Assembly: GCA_014240065.1 (NCBI GenBank)
Contig: JAAZXR010000021.1
Span: 1 to 64,000 of the forward strand
Length of the DNA: 64,000 bases
Direction of reading: 5' to 3'
DNA from: Myxococcales bacterium
GTDB taxonomy: Bacteria > Myxococcota_A > Polyangia > Nannocystales > Nannocystaceae
Shown: positions 34,749 to 54,664 of the stretch, in pieces
How the letters are laid out: every line of letters starts with the position of its first letter
Numbering within the stretch: position 1 is the stretch's first letter
Program-made: the position numbers and the translations under genes
Notes under the pieces: generated by a model
What the model was told of the DNA's origin: nothing
Seen by the model: the letters and a program-made list of their open reading frames with translations, nothing else
The model's database searches: none

Positions 34749-35912
34749 GTGGCAGCGGTGCTCGTCACTTGCTGCTGCACCATTGCGAACGCGGCCTCCG
34801 CACCAGAGCCTGCTTCGGCGCTAGCGCCTGCTTCGGCGGGAGCGCCTGCTTCGGCGGGAGCGCCTGCTTCGGCGGGAGCGCTCGCCCCAGGCCAGGGCGC
34901 GGCCGGCGAGCAGGCTGTGACAGCGGTTGGCGGGCCCGTGGCGCCCGCCCCCGAGGTGCCGCCCGGCTTTGCGCTTGCGCCCACGGCGGTGGAGCCGTCG
35001 GTCTCCATGGACGAGGAGGAGGACGCCCGCATGGCCGAGGCTTTCTCTCTTGGTCTGCACCCATTGCCGAACGGGGGCTTCGCCTACGAGGGGACACCGG
35101 GCGAGCGCTTCGACGCGCTCATTCGACCCGACGGTGTGGTGCGCTTGCTCCCCGAGTCTCCGGTGCAGGTGAAGGCCGACTCGATCTGCGCGGTGGTGGT
35201 CTGCGTGCGCACCAAAAAAACGTCGCCGGGACGCACGGCCTCGAATCGCGCCGAGCGGTGGGTGGCTTTGGCCGGCGCCTACGCGGCCGCCCTCACGGCG
35301 ACGGCGTTCGGTGGCGACCCGAACCAGAATCTCGGTACCCCCCAAGAAGCGGTCATGCAAGGCCGCGGATGGCAACAGACGCCGGCGCAGCTGAGCAATC
35401 CGGCGGGGGCGGCGCCCGGGTCGGTCGCCCCCGTGGCGTCGGCGAGTGGGCGCTATGGGTTTTTGCCCACGCCCAACCGCCAGATGGCGGCGTTCTTGAA
35501 CCGGACCTTTGAGTTTCGCCTGCGCCTCGCGATCGCGGCGTGGGAGCGGCGTTGCGAAGAGGCGCTCGTGCAGCTTCCTTCGCGGTTACTCACCATTTGG
35601 AATGACGACTCGCTCTCCCATGCGGATCGCCGCGCCGAGATTTTGTATCTGTGGGACAGCCTTGAGTTTCGCACGGTGGATGTGCCCCTCGGCACCGCGG
35701 TGGCGAGCGAGGTAGACGCGAACCGGCTCCGCGCCGCAGAAGCAGCACGCGCGCGGATTTTGAAGTTCGTGCGGACGAGCTTGCCGGCGCGGTCTCCCCG
35801 TTCGTTCACCCGCAAGGAGCTTCGCCGCTTCAACGAGGGGCGCGCCGGCGCCTCCTTGTTTTGGCCCTACAAAGCCCCGCGCCGCCGCTTGTTCCTCGGC
35901 GGCCAGCGTTAA
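34749..35912 (+). CDS. Secreted envelope protein, unknown function
   Basis: 387 residues from GTG 34749, with a short signal-like N-terminus rich in Cys (V-T-C-C-C-T) ending near A-N-A-A-S-A. Three perfect A-P-A-S-A-G units follow (18-bp DNA repeats at 34824-34877). The rest is a soluble domain with a helical, Arg-rich C-terminal half (about 245-387). I do not recognise a family. The start is a guess forced by the preceding stop at 34732; the frame is open upstream inside the lipoprotein gene. Probably co-transcribed with it. It converges on the DUF1501 gene. Confidence 0.6.
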   Translation: MAAVLVTCCCTIANAASAPEPASALAPASAGAPASAGAPASAGALAPGQGAAGEQAVTAVGGPVAPAPEVPPGFALAPTAVEPSVSMDEEEDARMAEAFSLGLHPLPNGGFAYEGTPGERFDALIRPDGVVRLLPESPVQVKADSICAVVVCVRTKKTSPGRTASNRAERWVALAGAYAAALTATAFGGDPNQNLGTPQEAVMQGRGWQQTPAQLSNPAGAAPGSVAPVASASGRYGFLPTPNRQMAAFLNRTFEFRLRLAIAAWERRCEEALVQLPSRLLTIWNDDSLSHADRRAEILYLWDSLEFRTVDVPLGTAVASEVDANRLRAAEAARARILKFVRTSLPARSPRSFTRKELRRFNEGRAGASLFWPYKAPRRRLFLGGQR

Positions 35913-45642: not shown

Positions 45643-45732
45643 CGCCGCACTTTACCGGGCCTTTACCGTGGGGCGGCACCTCGTACACGTGGAGCGCTCG
45701 CGAACGCCAGCAGTTTCGCGTAGGGTCCGTCC

Positions 45733-46404
45733 ATGAAGATCGCTCGCGTGTCCCGTACGGCCTCGTCGCTCGCCACCTCGCGTGCTCTTCGGCTGTCTTG
45801 CGACGCTGCGTCGGTGGCGTTGGCGCTCGCCCTAGCGCTCGTGGGATGCGGAGTCGCCGACGACGGCGGAGACGGCAGCGGGGGCGAAGAGGGGTCCACG
45901 TCGCAGACCTCCGCGGACGACACCGGGACCGCGAGCGCCGACACCGGGGACGGGGACGGGGACGGGGACGGGGACGGGGACGGGGACGGGGACAGCGCGT
46001 GCGCGTTCCCCCTCGTGGCGCTCCAGACCGGCCAAGACTCCACCTGCGCGGGCGGCAACGTCCACACCTGGCCGATCGGCATGGCGCCCGAGGATTGTCA
46101 CGGCTGGGTGGGCGTGGACAATATGGGCGAAGAGCACGCCAACTCCGCCAACGCCATCGGCTGCAACGCCGACGGCACCTTCACCTTCACGCAATTCGCG
46201 GGCAACCTCGACTGCAGCAGAGGTGGGGTGGAGAAAGTTTTTACGATGGGTGTGTGCGAGCAAGACATCCCACCGGTGCTCTATACGGTGGGACTCAACC
46301 TCGCCTGTTGTCTCGACCCGACGTCGCCGGATTGCGTCACCGGGATCCCCTCGGTGGAGGTGCAAGGCGGCAGCGTCTACCTCAACGGCGTCGCCTGTGA
46401 GTAG
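45733..46404 (+). CDS. Predicted lipoprotein with (GD)8 linker
   Basis: 223 residues. The leader is long and ends L-V-G-C (Cys39). A Ser/Thr/Asp linker follows and includes eight Gly-Asp pairs encoded by a perfect hexanucleotide array. The mature domain (about 92-223) has eight Cys, consistent with a compact disulfide-bonded fold, and ends close to the stop with G-V-A-C-E. No known family. The linker should hold the domain away from the membrane. It converges with the copper monooxygenase gene, with 15 bp between stops. Confidence 0.78.
   Translation: MKIARVSRTASSLATSRALRLSCDAASVALALALALVGCGVADDGGDGSGGEEGSTSQTSADDTGTASADTGDGDGDGDGDGDGDGDSACAFPLVALQTGQDSTCAGGNVHTWPIGMAPEDCHGWVGVDNMGEEHANSANAIGCNADGTFTFTQFAGNLDCSRGGVEKVFTMGVCEQDIPPVLYTVGLNLACCLDPTSPDCVTGIPSVEVQGGSVYLNGVACE
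45946..45993 (+). repeat. (GGGGAC)8 coding microsatellite
   Basis: Eight perfect tandem copies of GGGGAC inside the lipoprotein gene, coding for alternating Gly-Asp. Copy-number change would lengthen or shorten the linker without shifting the frame. Confidence 0.95.
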
Positions 46405-46419
46405 CCCCGCCGCTCACGT

Positions 46420-47781
46420 CTACAGCGGTTTGTAGGCGACGCCGAGCCCCACCAGGCACATCTCATCGAGGGTGCCTTCGCCGACCTCCACGTCGATGGG
46501 TTCGGTCTCACCGACCTCGGCGAGCGCTTCGAGCACGGCGGGGTTGTCCATGGTGTTGTCGTAGGTGCAGCGCACCCGGACGATGTCGCCGTTCTCGACC
46601 TTGAAACCCTCCGCGATGGGCGTGTCGTAGGTGTAGATCCGCTGCCAGTTAAAGTCCCAGGAGGGGGTCTGCACCAGGCAGTATTCTTCGCCGCCGCGGA
46701 TGATGCTCGTCTGCATGTCCACCCCCACCTTGTGCATATGATTGGCCGCCGCCCACACGCGCGCGTCGACGTTGCCGAAGTCGGGGACGAACCAATCCAC
46801 CACCTCTTCGTGGTCCTTGGCGCCCGCTTTGATGAGGAAGGGTGGGTCTTGAATGGTGCCGACGCCGGGGGCGCCCACCAGCTCAAAAAACGAGCTCCAC
46901 TCGGGGGGTTGTGCGGAGTACCGAACGGCGAGCGCGGTGGAGTCATCCACCTCAGGGCCGCCGCCCGTGGCGTGGTAGTGGTAGTTTAAGATCATCCGCG
47001 CGCCTGCGGGGAACTCGACGCCGACGCCCGCGGGGGATTGGAACGGGAAGGAGCCCGGGACCCAGCCGCCGATGAGGGTGGCGTCGGCGACGCCCGGTCC
47101 GCCACCGCAGTCCTCTCGGATGCCGTCTTGCCAGGACGCCGAGGCGCCCGCGGGGTCGATGAACATCAGCACGTGGTGGGCGACCTCGGGGTTGCCCGGG
47201 ATCACTTGAATGCCGTCGAGGTAGATATTCTCGGTGTTGCCGAGATCGAAGCTGAGGCAGTGCACGAAGTCGAGCGTGGTGTCGGTTGCCTCCACCGTGA
47301 TCGACCCCTGCATGGGGATGGTGGCGGTGGGATTTTTAAGGTTGGGATCGATGGGCGGTGGGATGCTCACCGCCAGCGTCGGATCACCCTCCGGGGCGCC
47401 GAGGTCTGCCCAGTCGATGAAGGCTTGAATCTCCTCTTCGGACAGGCGCGCGTCGTGGTTGAAGGGAAACGGTGGCGCGCAGGTCTCTGTCTCCACCGCG
47501 TGCCACGGAGGCATGATCCCCGCGGCGACCTGTTGGGCCATGAACGCTGCCCACGGTCTCGTCTCCTCGTAGTCGTTCATCGAAAACGGCGCGATCCCGC
47601 CGTCGCTGTGGCAGCTTTGGCAATTGGAGGCGACCAATGGCGCCATGTCCTCGTACCAGTTGGGGCGGGCATCTGTCGTCCCGCCGTCATCCGTACCGCT
47701 GAGCCCCGACTGATTCGAACAACCGACTGCGCTTCCGACGACAGCACACCCAATCCACAACGCGAGCCTCGTTAATCTCAT
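46420..47781 (-). CDS. Haem-c / type II copper ascorbate-dependent monooxygenase-like lipoprotein
   Basis: 453 residues. The leader ends S-A-V-G-C (Cys21). An N-terminal cytochrome-type domain has C54-Q-S-C-H58 with M-P-P-W-H near 90. The C-terminal two thirds match the peptidylglycine/dopamine-monooxygenase fold, with H202-H203-V-L-M-F, H268-Y-H270 and N-H348-M-H350 as copper-ligand candidates. Such fusions are expected to hydroxylate a substrate at the envelope using electrons delivered by the haem domain; the substrate is unknown. Start ATG 47781 was chosen because it begins the lipoprotein leader. Confidence 0.85.
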   Translation of the reverse strand: MRLTRLALWIGCAVVGSAVGCSNQSGLSGTDDGGTTDARPNWYEDMAPLVASNCQSCHSDGGIAPFSMNDYEETRPWAAFMAQQVAAGIMPPWHAVETETCAPPFPFNHDARLSEEEIQAFIDWADLGAPEGDPTLAVSIPPPIDPNLKNPTATIPMQGSITVEATDTTLDFVHCLSFDLGNTENIYLDGIQVIPGNPEVAHHVLMFIDPAGASASWQDGIREDCGGGPGVADATLIGGWVPGSFPFQSPAGVGVEFPAGARMILNYHYHATGGGPEVDDSTALAVRYSAQPPEWSSFFELVGAPGVGTIQDPPFLIKAGAKDHEEVVDWFVPDFGNVDARVWAAANHMHKVGVDMQTSIIRGGEEYCLVQTPSWDFNWQRIYTYDTPIAEGFKVENGDIVRVRCTYDNTMDNPAVLEALAEVGETEPIDVEVGEGTLDEMCLVGLGVAYKPL

Positions 47782-47913
47782 GACAGGAGCGTAGCGCGCC
47801 AGCGGCGGGGGCCGCAACACGCGTCGATCAGACCGCGGCGTGGTCGCGCATGAGGTTGAGAAGGTCGTGGGCGGGTGTGGTGCAGGAGGTGGGGAGATGT
47901 CCTACGATGATGT

Positions 47914-48252
47914 ATGCCCTACTGCGAAGCGCTCGCGGATCGCGTGCGGATCGTCCTCGGACCCCGGCCGGACATCGCGGAGCAGAAAATGTTCGGAGGG
48001 CTCGCGTTCTTGTTGAGGAGAAAAGTCGGCGTCGGCGTCATCCGCGAGGAGCTGCTGGTGCGCGTCGGCACCGCGCGATACGAGCGGGCGCTGCGGCATC
48101 CACACGCGCGCGTCATGGACTTCACGGGGCGACCGATGAGGGGGTACGTGTTCGTGACCCCGCCCGGTTGTTTGGAGTCTTCCTCGGTGGAGGGCTGGGT
48201 CGCGCAAGGGCTCGCGTGCGTCGAGCAGCTGCTGTATCGCGACGACGCATGA
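47914..48252 (+). CDS. TfoX N-terminal domain protein
   Basis: 112 residues matching the TfoX N-terminal domain: K-M-F-G-G-L-A-F-L, then R-V-G-T-A-R-Y-E-x-A-L and M-D-F-T-G-R-P-M-R-G-Y-V. Stand-alone proteins of this type are widespread and their role is poorly known; the domain was named from a competence regulator. Clear ATG start. The gene diverges from the copper monooxygenase gene and lies 61 bp before the DUF924 gene. Confidence 0.88.
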   Translation: MPYCEALADRVRIVLGPRPDIAEQKMFGGLAFLLRRKVGVGVIREELLVRVGTARYERALRHPHARVMDFTGRPMRGYVFVTPPGCLESSSVEGWVAQGLACVEQLLYRDDA

Positions 48253-48313
48253 GGGCTCGCGGGCATCTCGAATTGACGAGATGAGACGCGGAGATTCATG
48301 GCACTATCTCCGC

Positions 48314-48880
48314 ATGAGCACCTCTGTCGACAACTCAGTGACCGGTGGCGACGTGTTGTCGTTCTGGTTCGAGACCCATGGTCCCAAGGACTGGTTCGGT
48401 GGAGCGGAGAGTTTTGACAAGGCGGTGATCGAGGGGTTCTCGACGACCCACGCGAAGGCGGTCTCCAACGAGCTTGTCTCGTGGCGGAGCACGCCGGAGG
48501 GGCGGCTCGCAGAGATCATCGTGCTCGATCAGTTCAGCCGCCAGATTCATCGTCGGCATCCACGCGCCTTCGCGGCCGACGGACAGGCGCTGGCCTTGGC
48601 CCAGGAGATGGTGCTGCGAGGGGATGATGTCAAGATCGAGGAGGCGCGAAGGCGCTTCGCGTACATACCGTTCATGCACTCCGAGTCCCGCGTTGTTCAG
48701 GACGAATCGGTGCGGTTGTTTTCTGCGTTCGATGAGGAGTCGCAGCGATACGCGAAGGACCATCGCGCGCTGATCGTGCGTTTCGGTCGATATCCGCACC
48801 GCAACGCGACGTTGGGGCGAGCGAACACCGCCGAGGAGGCCGAGTACCTCGCGGGGAGTCACGAGTCCTACGGACAGTGA
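48314..48880 (+). CDS. DUF924 family protein
   Basis: 188-residue soluble helical protein of the DUF924 family. It has V-L-S-F-W-F-E near the start, W-F-G-G-A-E-S-F-D, then I-V-L-D-Q-F-S-R-Q-I-H-R, Y-I-P-F-M-H-S-E, and R-F-G-R-Y-P-H-R-N near the end. Function unproven; members resemble TPR-like folds. ATG 48314 gives the usual N-terminus; an in-frame start 33 bases upstream is less likely. A T-run at about 48972-48978, after a weak GTCGC/GCGAC stem, may end its transcript. Confidence 0.88.
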   Translation: MSTSVDNSVTGGDVLSFWFETHGPKDWFGGAESFDKAVIEGFSTTHAKAVSNELVSWRSTPEGRLAEIIVLDQFSRQIHRRHPRAFAADGQALALAQEMVLRGDDVKIEEARRRFAYIPFMHSESRVVQDESVRLFSAFDEESQRYAKDHRALIVRFGRYPHRNATLGRANTAEEAEYLAGSHESYGQ

Positions 48881-49013
48881 GCGTCGCGCGGTGTGTCCCA
48901 CACCGTAGGGGGGTGTGACGCAGGGAGCAGACGGTCGCAGCGCGCGGTGGGTTCGTTCCGGGACGCCGCGACTTTTTTTCCAAAATGTGCGGGGGGCTCT
49001 CGAAGGGAAGGAC

Positions 49014-49046
49014 ATGAACCACAGCAGCTACGTTCGTATCAAATAA
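49014..49046 (+). CDS. Candidate 10-codon leader peptide
   Basis: ATG at 49014 is preceded by a strong purine-rich ribosome site (GAAGGGAAGG) and encodes M-N-H-S-S-Y-V-R-I-K followed by TAA. It lies directly before a hairpin and a terminator. It is too short for sequence-based proof. Position and ribosome site are the only support. Confidence 0.4.
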   Translation: MNHSSYVRIK

Positions 49047-49081
49047 GAGGAGACCGCGACGTGTCACGCGGCTTTCTCTTC
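49047..49081 (+). promoter_or_regulatory. Hairpin covering a second ribosome-binding site
   Basis: GAGGAGACCGCG (49047-49058) can pair with CGCGG...TCTCTTC (49067-49081), with one G-U pair and a 3-base bulge. The stem hides the GAGGAG ribosome site of a further short frame (GTG at about 49061, 26 codons). With the upstream 10-codon frame and downstream terminator it looks like a leader or attenuator. Confidence 0.4.
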
Positions 49082-49091
49082 GCCATCACTC

Positions 49092-49125
49092 ACCAAGGCT
49101 CGTTATCGCGAGCCTTGGTCTTTTT
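49092..49125 (+). terminator. Rho-independent terminator
   Basis: A perfect 11-bp stem, ACCAAGGCTCG (49092-49102) with CGAGCCTTGGT (49109-49119), a 6-base loop, then C and five T (49121-49125). The T-run shows that it works on rightward transcripts, from DUF924 or from the short leader region. Confidence 0.85.
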
Positions 49126-49137
49126 GGTCGGGCCGAC

Positions 49138-50286
49138 TTAGGCGGAGGGGAGCCCGGGGAGGTCTGGTGGATTCACGGCGCAGCCTCCGATGACCTTCCC
49201 GGTCCATCGCGCCTGCACGGCGGCCGCGGCCTCGCGCAATGAAAAGGTATGCGAGATATGTGGCGCGAGCTTGCCCTCCGCGGCGAGGGCCTTGAGGTGC
49301 CGTACGCGGGGAGGACGAATGCTTGGATCTTTTTGGGTGGAGATGACCATGGGGCAGCCGAGGACCTTGAGTCCCTTCATCATGATGAGGTTCGTCGGCA
49401 GGAGGTTGGCGTTGGGGGCGCCGCGGCCTCCTTTACCCTTGGCGACGGCGGGGGTCGCCGCCCATCCCACGATCAAAAATCTGGCGCCAAACTTCACGCA
49501 GCGTAGGCTCTCAAGGGAGATGTCGCCGCCGACCGCGTCGTAGACCACGTCCACGCCCGCGCCCCCTGTGAGCGCCTTCACGTCGTCTCGGAAACGCCGG
49601 ACGCCGGGGGTCCCGTCCTCGTTGCCCAAGGTGAGGACATGATCCGCGCCGTGCTGGGCGACGACCTCGAGCTTGCTGCGGGTGCGCCCCGTGGCGATGA
49701 CCGTGGCGCCGAGCGCCTTGGCGAGCTGGACCGCGGCGAGGCCTGTTGCGCCGGACGCCCCGTGGATGAGGATCGTCTCCCCAGCTTGTAGGTCGCCGCA
49801 GGCGACCAAGCAGTGCCACGCGGTCTCGTAGCTGCCGGCGAAGTTGCACGCCTGATCGAAGCTCAGCGATGGGGGCTTGGGGATCACGGCGCGCGCGGGG
49901 GCGACGGCGTAGGAGGCGAACCCCCCCCACCCTTGGTAGGCGCCGGAGGTGCGCGGTCCAACCTGAAAACCGTCGGCGTAGACCTCATCCCCCACCGCGA
50001 TCCTCGCGGGATCAACGTCGGCGCCGATCCACGCCACGACGCCGCTGTACTCGAGCCCCGGTGTGTAGGGGAGCGCGGGCATGTGCTGGTACTGCCCGCT
50101 CGTCATGAGGGCGTCGACCCAAGAGACGCAGGCGCTCTTGACGGCGATGATCACGTCATGGGGGGCGAGCGACGCTGGATCTGGCGGGGCTTGCTCCTCG
50201 ATGTGGAGGTGGTTGGCGATGCCTTGAGTGGGGTCGTCCGCGAGCGCGCGCACGACCGCACGGATTCCGTGGGGGAGGGGAGTCAT
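49138..50286 (-). CDS. Zinc-free MDR / NADPH:quinone oxidoreductase family protein
   Basis: 382-residue medium-chain dehydrogenase/reductase of the quinone oxidoreductase type. It has Y-T-P-G-L-E-Y-S-G-V-V near residue 75, the cofactor-binding H-G-A-S-G-A-T-G-L-A-A-V-Q (about 176-188) and D-V-V-Y-D-A-V-G-G near 248. It lacks the structural-zinc Cys cluster and the catalytic Cys/His zinc ligands of alcohol dehydrogenases. It probably reduces quinones or enones with NADPH. It is the third gene of a leftward run, 12 bp after a lipoprotein gene. Confidence 0.87.
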   Translation of the reverse strand: MTPLPHGIRAVVRALADDPTQGIANHLHIEEQAPPDPASLAPHDVIIAVKSACVSWVDALMTSGQYQHMPALPYTPGLEYSGVVAWIGADVDPARIAVGDEVYADGFQVGPRTSGAYQGWGGFASYAVAPARAVIPKPPSLSFDQACNFAGSYETAWHCLVACGDLQAGETILIHGASGATGLAAVQLAKALGATVIATGRTRSKLEVVAQHGADHVLTLGNEDGTPGVRRFRDDVKALTGGAGVDVVYDAVGGDISLESLRCVKFGARFLIVGWAATPAVAKGKGGRGAPNANLLPTNLIMMKGLKVLGCPMVISTQKDPSIRPPRVRHLKALAAEGKLAPHISHTFSLREAAAAVQARWTGKVIGGCAVNPPDLPGLPSA

Positions 50287-51272: not shown

Positions 51273-51459
51273 GTCCGGCGGACGTTACCACGGGGCCAGG
51301 TATTCGACCCGCGCGTCCGATTACCTGGAGGGGCGCTGAATTGGCCTAGGAAACCGGCGCCTTGGATGTCCGTGTCTCGATGAGATCGCGAGCCGGCGTG
51401 ATCTTGGTCATCGCGCCGGGCTTCACAGCAGCCGATCCGTGGTGTAGGCCCATGGGTGG

Positions 51460-53300: not shown

Positions 53301-53662
53301 TCGCGGGCGACGAGCCCTGGGCTGATGTTGGGAGGGCATCGAGACCGCGCGGACATGTGGGGCCCGGGGCTCGCGGCGTCTTGGGTCTCTAGAGGAGCGT
53401 CGCACGGACGGGGAGCCGCTAACATTTGTGCTTGGCTCCATAAGAGCGGCGCCGCCGAGCGCGCCGATCAAAATTTGCATTCTCTCCTCCGTGAGCCGGA
53501 GTATGCGCCTGCGGTCGAGGCTAGTTGTTTGTTCTAGATCTGAGGAGGACGCCCACCTTGACCGGCTGGATGCGGACGTGGATGGTAGGGCATGACGCCG
53601 GTTGTTGGGCGCGCGGTGTCATCGAGCAGGGACGCTCAAGCCCGACGAGGAGAAAGTTAGTC
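53301..53662. other. Intergenic region upstream of the nitrilase-fold gene
   Basis: This 362-bp gap has no gene that I can support on either strand. It probably holds the promoter of the next lipoprotein gene; a TTGACC near 53567 resembles a -35 box, but no matching -10 box is clear. GAGGAGAAAG near 53647-53656 is the ribosome site of the next gene. Confidence 0.4.
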
Positions 53663-54664
53663 ATGATCACAAAGAGAATTCATCGTCTGTTGGGGATCGC
53701 GTGGATGGTGGGTGCGTTGCTCTCGGTGCCAGGGTGTGGAGAGGCGCCGGATGGCTCCCAAATCGTGGATGAATCCGGAGACGGAGACGACAACGGCGAC
53801 GGAGACGGAGACGGAGACGACAACGGAGACGGAGACGACAACGGAGACGGAGACGACAACGGAGACGGAGACGGAGACGGCGACGGCGATCTGCTCCCGC
53901 CATCCATCGCGCTCGTGCAATACAACGCCGATCTGAACTTCGCGGACGCCAACCTCAACGTGAGCAATTTGACCGATCTGAGCCTCGAAGCGGTGGAGCT
54001 GGGCGCGAAGATCATCGTGCATCCCGAGGGCTCCACCTGGGGGTATGCGACGCACAATACGCTCTGGTGTCTGCCCGGAGAGGAGATGTACGGCTGGATG
54101 TTCTGTGTGGATGTGTCCCTGGCTGCGGAGCCGATCCCCGGCGGGCCTACGACCGGATACTGGGAATCCTTCGCGGCGATGCACGATGTCTACGTCATCT
54201 ATCATGTCCCCGAAGTGGAGGGAGGTGACTACTTCAACTCTGTGGGAATCGTTGGACCCGAAGGATTCGTGTCTCGCTATCGCAAACGCGAACTCTATAG
54301 TACTGACCTGGCGTACGCGCAGGAGGGTACAGAGAGCGTGATCTTCGAGACGGAGTACGGGGACTTCGGCATGATGATCTGCATGGACGGGACCTACAAC
54401 GGCGTGCTGTACGACGAGTATGTGGAGGCCGGTGTCGATGGGATCATCCTCTCCATGAACTGGGATGAGGACCCCGACGGGTCCTATGCGGCCGCGACAT
54501 GGTTTACGGAACGCGCCGCGGACAACAACATCATCATCTACGCCTCCGATGTCTCCGCGTGGGACGGCACCGCGAAGTATCTCCCCGATGGAACCCGCGA
54601 GCGCAACGGGCTCCCCGATCCAGCCGTCGGGATCGACGGGCTCTCGCTGCATCTGCTCGAATAG
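53663..54664 (+). CDS. Nitrilase-superfamily (carbon-nitrogen hydrolase) lipoprotein
   Basis: 333 residues. The leader ends S-V-P-G-C (Cys25), followed by about 40 residues of Gly/Asp/Asn repeats (53777-53890). The rest is a nitrilase fold with the catalytic triad E122 (H-P-E-G-S), K208 (Y-R-K-R-E-L) and C240 (M-I-C-M-D-G). It would hydrolyse an amide or nitrile at the cell envelope. Most bacterial nitrilases are cytoplasmic, so the lipid anchor recalls secreted relatives such as vanin/biotinidase. GAGGAGAAAG upstream supports ATG 53663. Confidence 0.85.
   Translation: MITKRIHRLLGIAWMVGALLSVPGCGEAPDGSQIVDESGDGDDNGDGDGDGDDNGDGDDNGDGDDNGDGDGDGDGDLLPPSIALVQYNADLNFADANLNVSNLTDLSLEAVELGAKIIVHPEGSTWGYATHNTLWCLPGEEMYGWMFCVDVSLAAEPIPGGPTTGYWESFAAMHDVYVIYHVPEVEGGDYFNSVGIVGPEGFVSRYRKRELYSTDLAYAQEGTESVIFETEYGDFGMMICMDGTYNGVLYDEYVEAGVDGIILSMNWDEDPDGSYAAATWFTERAADNNIIIYASDVSAWDGTAKYLPDGTRERNGLPDPAVGIDGLSLHLLE
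53777..53890 (+). repeat. Asp/Gly/Asn-coding tandem repeat
   Basis: Imperfect array of GGAGAC hexamers with interspersed GACAAC, in effect an 18-bp higher unit (GGAGACGGAGACGACAAC) used about four times, coding for the linker of the nitrilase-fold lipoprotein. Confidence 0.85.

Follow-up and report, generated by a model that had tools for sequence, protein, structure and literature searches.

A conserved intergenic element ending in an intrinsic terminator, putatively a small RNA gene with a leader-type frame, in two Nannocystaceae genomes

Described systems with a comparable layout

Small RNAs derived from the 3'-UTRs of mRNAs are a known kind, and rnTrpL of Sinorhizobium meliloti is reportedly a small terminated RNA. 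The leader peptide that goes with rnTrpL, peTrpL, is described as acting away from its own locus (PMC7298713). For the macrolide-responsive leader peptide ErmDL (MTHSMRLR), an RLR triplet at positions 6-8 and a required N-terminal context are described (PMC8298421). The element analysed here, at 48999-49125 on the + strand of the window (the whole 64,000-nt stretch of DNA under analysis), resembles peTrpL in its short leader-type frame; however, the peTrpL leader belongs to the transcription attenuator of an operon, whereas no operon follows here. With ErmDL it shares an M-x-H-S start, a late +X+ triplet and a subsequent structure that includes a second ribosome site, but it has no resistance gene, its second frame (26 codons) is not conserved as a protein, and arrest on it is putative. 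Like a 3'-UTR-derived small RNA, it would be a conserved, terminator-bounded RNA just 3' of a same-strand gene, yet it bears a conserved ribosome site and frame. By analogy, then, the element's mode of action would be closest to that of small RNAs carrying a leader-type frame, that of peTrpL for example, no kinship being implied. It was absent among the matches listed in literature searches on Nannocystaceae and myxobacterial small RNAs, dual-function RNAs, macrolide leaders and trans-acting attenuators, and a search on conditional terminators gave no match. Across the whole window, no Rfam match reached its gathering threshold; three matches near the site had E-values of 0.28-1, far below gathering scores.

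Anatomy and conservation of the locus

The genome containing the window comprises 4.7 Mb in 235 contigs, and the element was found in the same synteny in a sister species, a metagenome-assembled Nannocystaceae genome of the same genus. A sequence-only reading had proposed a leader frame, a hairpin masking a ribosome site and a terminator, and all of the parts that it named were located within 49002-49125. On the + strand the order is GAAGGGAAGGAC, then the ATG of ORF1. The features are as follows.

48314..48880, + strand: DUF924 family gene (PF06041; Pfam E 3.7e-57), upstream flank, in the sister species too
48999..49125, + strand: conserved island, the proposed small RNA or mini-mRNA unit; identity 0.913 to the sister
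49002..49007, + strand: candidate ribosome-binding site GAAGGG, 6 nt before the ATG; unchanged in the sister
49014..49046, + strand: ORF1, MNHSSYVRIK*, 10 codons plus TAA; MNHSSYIRIK* in the sister
49045..49080, + strand: hairpin with an 8-nt loop (49059-49066); its 5' arm starts in the ORF1 stop codon and includes GAGGAG
49047-49052, + strand: GAGGAG, the second ribosome site (SD2), before ORF2 and within the hairpin 5' arm
49061..49141, + strand: ORF2, GTG start, 26 codons plus stop, reading through the terminator; probably no gene
49082..49091, + strand: invariant linker (10/10 identical), mostly unpaired in folds; candidate seed
49092..49125, + strand: intrinsic terminator from stem scan and conservation; stem 49092-49119, T5 at 49121-49125
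49138..50286, - strand: convergent gene of the zinc-type alcohol dehydrogenase/quinone oxidoreductase family (PF00107, PF08240, PF13602)

The convergent dehydrogenase gene is 95% identical in the sister. Upstream, the window carries a gene for a TfoX N-terminal domain (PF04993) at 47914-48252; BLAST aligned nothing in the sister contig with the stretch 47725-48349, in whose place stand ~200 bp, indicating gain or loss near the element. Two putative lipoproteins, recognised by eye at 45733-46404 and 53525-54664, have long low-complexity runs of the Gly-Asp type near their N-termini.

Comparison with the sister, and hence between two sequences, showed the island at 48999-49125 to be 91.3% identical, with sharp edges. 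The 118 bp flanking it upstream were 66.9% identical, noncoding pieces elsewhere in the syntenic block 66.7% (45643-45732) and 63.6% (51273-51459), and two short noncoding pieces 60.0% (15 bp) and 66.7% (12 bp), while fourfold sites of the two flanking genes gave 69.7% (76 sites) and 71.2% (222 sites). At an identity of 0.71, the chance of at least 113 identities in 124 positions is P 4e-8. Since the island stands at 91% with sharp edges against 60-67% for noncoding sequence and 70-71% for fourfold sites, we conclude that it is under selection. When coding sequence is included, 36% of aligned windows of the same length reach the island's identity, so that it is unremarkable by that measure; only the noncoding yardstick makes its identity telling. 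By part, identity was 11/12 for the ribosome-site segment, 30/33 for ORF1, 25/25 for the hairpin 5' arm and loop, 7/10 for the hairpin 3' arm and 10/10 for the linker, and in the terminator 28/28 for stem and tail and 2/6 for the loop. Changes in the terminator are thus confined to its loop, as expected of a functional terminator.

The terminator had been described as an 11-bp stem followed by T5; we counted 12 pairs, the innermost G-U, which leaves 11 Watson-Crick pairs. Although this stretch was picked post hoc, its folding energy gave z of about -7 in the window and the sister alike, and 0 of 500 shuffles equalled it. Judged by number it is less unusual: the window's + strand has two stems of at least 10 pairs with a T-rich tail, whereas 20 Markov sequences averaged 0.5, two of them likewise reaching two. 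A looser scan of 3.5 kb found three such structures against a shuffle mean of 1.7. A further strong terminator-like stem on the + strand lies at 35430-35459 (11 pairs, T5). For the whole unit on the + strand, z was about -3.4 to -3.6 in the window and -2.7 to -3.2 in the sister, but unit columns 1-90, which exclude the terminator, folded no more stably than shuffled sequence (z -0.9 and -0.2), so the low energy of the whole unit comes mostly from the terminator. Among the single-sequence statistics, the terminator alone stands out.

Sequence conservation is by itself strandless, and minus-strand folds score similarly (whole unit, z -2.6 and -2.8), as would be expected if the conserved RNA lay on the opposite strand as the 3'-UTR of the dehydrogenase gene. 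We consider this improbable, because the T-tract, the ribosome site and the retained short frame are all on the + strand, and by eye there is no T-run that would end a minus-strand transcript near 48999.

The main, serious rival takes the element for the tail of the DUF924 mRNA: a conserved 3'-UTR plus terminator, promoterless and with an incidental short frame, from which processing may yield a 3'-UTR-derived small RNA. It is serious since no promoter was recognised: a search of the + strand between 47500 and 51000 gave no promoter match. The DUF924 gene, moreover, lies on the same strand with its end at 48880, and the intervening 118 bp are no more alike between the species than an unconstrained UTR would be. 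Against it, inspection by eye revealed a 7-bp stem with a 14-nt loop followed by T7 already at 48943-48979, and a plain 3' end has no need of the ribosome site and ORF1, both of which have been kept. We hold the DUF924 reading to be rather unlikely. In the sister, again by eye, the stem at 48943-48979 is lost, and the T-run and the following CCAAA are kept, which could be the remnant of a terminator or of a promoter.

Reading frames, folding and the absence of a target gene

The sequence-only reading had noted that nothing lies downstream in the same direction, and the next gene is convergent in both species. On inspection, the + strand of the window holds just frames antisense to - strand genes up to 51460, where a fatty-acid desaturase gene, the next convincing + strand gene, begins; no convincing same-strand gene was seen after the element in either species. 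An attenuator, as had been suggested, is therefore unlikely. Nor did the modelled folds described below contain an antiterminator, and a classical attenuator was rejected, neither a convincing target gene nor mutually exclusive antiterminator and terminator structures having been seen. The variant in which the element is an attenuator leader whose downstream gene was lost or relocated draws on the order of leader frame, hairpin and terminator, which is that of an attenuator. Against this suggestion, both species retain the block while lacking a target, and no second copy occurs elsewhere in the genome; we regard it as distinctly improbable. With no target gene, second copy or antiterminator seen, a leader layout is present without a target.

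For ORF1, the claim of a strong ribosome site with a 10-codon frame held as to the presence of both, but "strong" was an overstatement. AAGGA sits 1 nt from the ORF1 ATG and reads AAAGA in the sister; CsrA-type GGA motifs were considered and rejected, AAGGA not being kept there. Differences from the sister by codon position 1/2/3 are 1/0/2, comprising one V-to-I replacement and two synonymous changes, which fall in the R and K codons. These changes fit a translated frame, as judged from sequence, and are too few for proof. ATG frames of 5-30 codons with an upstream SD-like 4-mer are common in the window (38 on the + strand, 20 on the - strand), so the 10-codon frame alone is no evidence. In addition, the ORF1 start codon is paired in the unconstrained fold of the window's sequence (unpaired probability 0.01-0.09, against 0.40-0.91 in the sister), which counts against efficient initiation there. 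The peptide MNHSSYVRIK has no residue run beyond S-S, and hence lacks the repeated regulatory codons of a classical attenuator leader.

The 26-codon frame after GAGGAG is likewise present, at 81 nt in both species, but does not evolve as a gene. Changes by codon position 1/2/3 are 3, 2 and 6, and six of the eight changed codons are nonsynonymous, so that ORF2 was rejected as a gene despite its equal length.

The hairpin said to hide GAGGAG was found, at 49045-49080. This stretch too was picked post hoc; it outdid shuffles only slightly in folding, with z of -2.5 in the window and -2.8 in the sister. The inner stem (CCGCG/CGCGG) and the loop are invariant between the species, while the outer 3' arm has changed and, in the sister, re-pairs around a bulge. 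RNAalifold gave compensatory changes at 0 of 31 predicted pairs, with one predicted pair passing from G-U to G-C. The compensatory changes expected by the sequence-only reading were thus not seen, a result that is uninformative rather than refuting, since covariation cannot show in two sequences whose stems are so conserved.

Equilibrium folds were also constrained by ribosomes with assumed footprints of 30-33 nt, at four ribosome positions in both species. In these models a ribosome late in ORF1 covers the outer 5' arm of the hairpin and so releases the 3' arm, which in the window and the sister alike pairs instead with the ORF1 ribosome site. Pairing of the 3' arm with this site, and likewise with GAGGAG, turned up under constraint in each of the two species. 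At all four positions, again in both, the pairing probability of the terminator stem was 0.96-0.99; as the stem stays folded in every modelled state, no antiterminator is seen. On these models, the pyrimidine-rich 3' arm (CUUUCUCUUC) could mask either the ORF1 ribosome site or GAGGAG, and through this alternative pairing a ribosome on ORF1 would alter which parts of the RNA are exposed. Of the paired parts, the 3' arm, on which such a switch would depend, is the least conserved.

Such a layout recalls ribosome-stalling leaders of the cat/erm kind, in which arrest on ORF1 (e.g., by a macrolide-like drug, at R8-I9-K10) would hold the hairpin open, GAGGAG would be exposed, ORF2 would be translated through the terminator, and the read-through transcript would be antisense to the convergent dehydrogenase gene. 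The hairpin 5' arm starts within the ORF1 stop codon, and a ribosome with codon 9 in the P site and an assumed 33-nt footprint would cover 49045-49052 plus two of the five inner-stem bases. R-I-K, moreover, fits the +X+ arrest motif, and the triplet is kept in both species even though both its R and K codons have changed synonymously. However, of the window's 169 ATG frames with 7-14 codons, 6 also end in +X+ and 30 contain it at any position, and the arrested ribosome would itself occupy GAGGAG. Further, ORF2 does not evolve as coding sequence, no resistance gene lies downstream and the terminator stem is folded in all states modelled. We therefore hold a stalling leader to be very doubtful. 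Still more speculative, and in our estimate extremely improbable, is a self-contained ribosome-sensing RNA in which macrolide-type arrest at R-I-K swaps the shared anti-ribosome-site arm between the two ribosome sites, yielding an antibiotic-triggered antisense switch against the dehydrogenase gene. If true, ribosome sensing would turn a terminated small RNA into an antisense transcript that reads through and is translated, although no resistance gene is associated with it.

Distribution and interpretation

The element matched in two of 59 genomes searched (own genome included), those of the window and the sister. A peptide pattern allowing up to two mismatches returned the same two among 317 genomes of the class, as did a covariance model among 29 family genomes and, with stricter filters, among the 317; of these 317, 178 have a completeness of 90% or more and little contamination. 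With this one peptide pattern and one RNA model, the element was not found in the other 315 class genomes. A looser peptide pattern run on GTDB contigs returned the congener and a Xanthovirga site, the latter in unlike sequence and taken as chance. In 25 other family genomes with both flanking genes, many of them fragmented drafts, comparison by eye placed the best matches on different contigs or far apart. A repeat or mobile element was rejected on account of the single copy in its own genome, where searches beyond the element gave weak matches (E 0.05 and up) and the terminator palindrome. As for phage or plasmid origin, there was no blastn match, and viral contigs held no match to the peptide pattern. 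The element is best read as probably genus-specific, having been seen in this genus only.

Potential targets were sought with a 12-mer of the linker, allowing up to one mismatch, in both genomes (the sister being 54% complete). This gave 42 sites, 33 in the window's genome and 9 in the sister's; among the 30 compared (21 and 9, respectively), none were orthologous except the element itself. One site pair (L124/L139) was rejected, its matches lying in several overlapping pieces away from the linker sites.

The best fit is the proposed free small RNA or dual-function RNA, since a conserved island ends in an intrinsic terminator and neither species shows a target gene; translation of its frame is putative. 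We accordingly favour, with confidence about evenly balanced, a putative free-standing small RNA gene of ~125 nt that would be read rightward through to its terminator at 49092-49125. The candidate RNA would be transcribed on its own. ORF1 may well be translated, which would make the unit a mini-mRNA or dual-function RNA. Likely contact sites are the invariant loop (49059-49066) and linker (49082-49091), through which the RNA may pair with target mRNAs.

If it is a stand-alone RNA whose 10-codon frame is translated, the element would give Nannocystaceae a candidate dual-function RNA, and a leader-like layout would be in use without a target gene; otherwise, it would be no more than a common type of 3' end or of lineage-specific small RNA.
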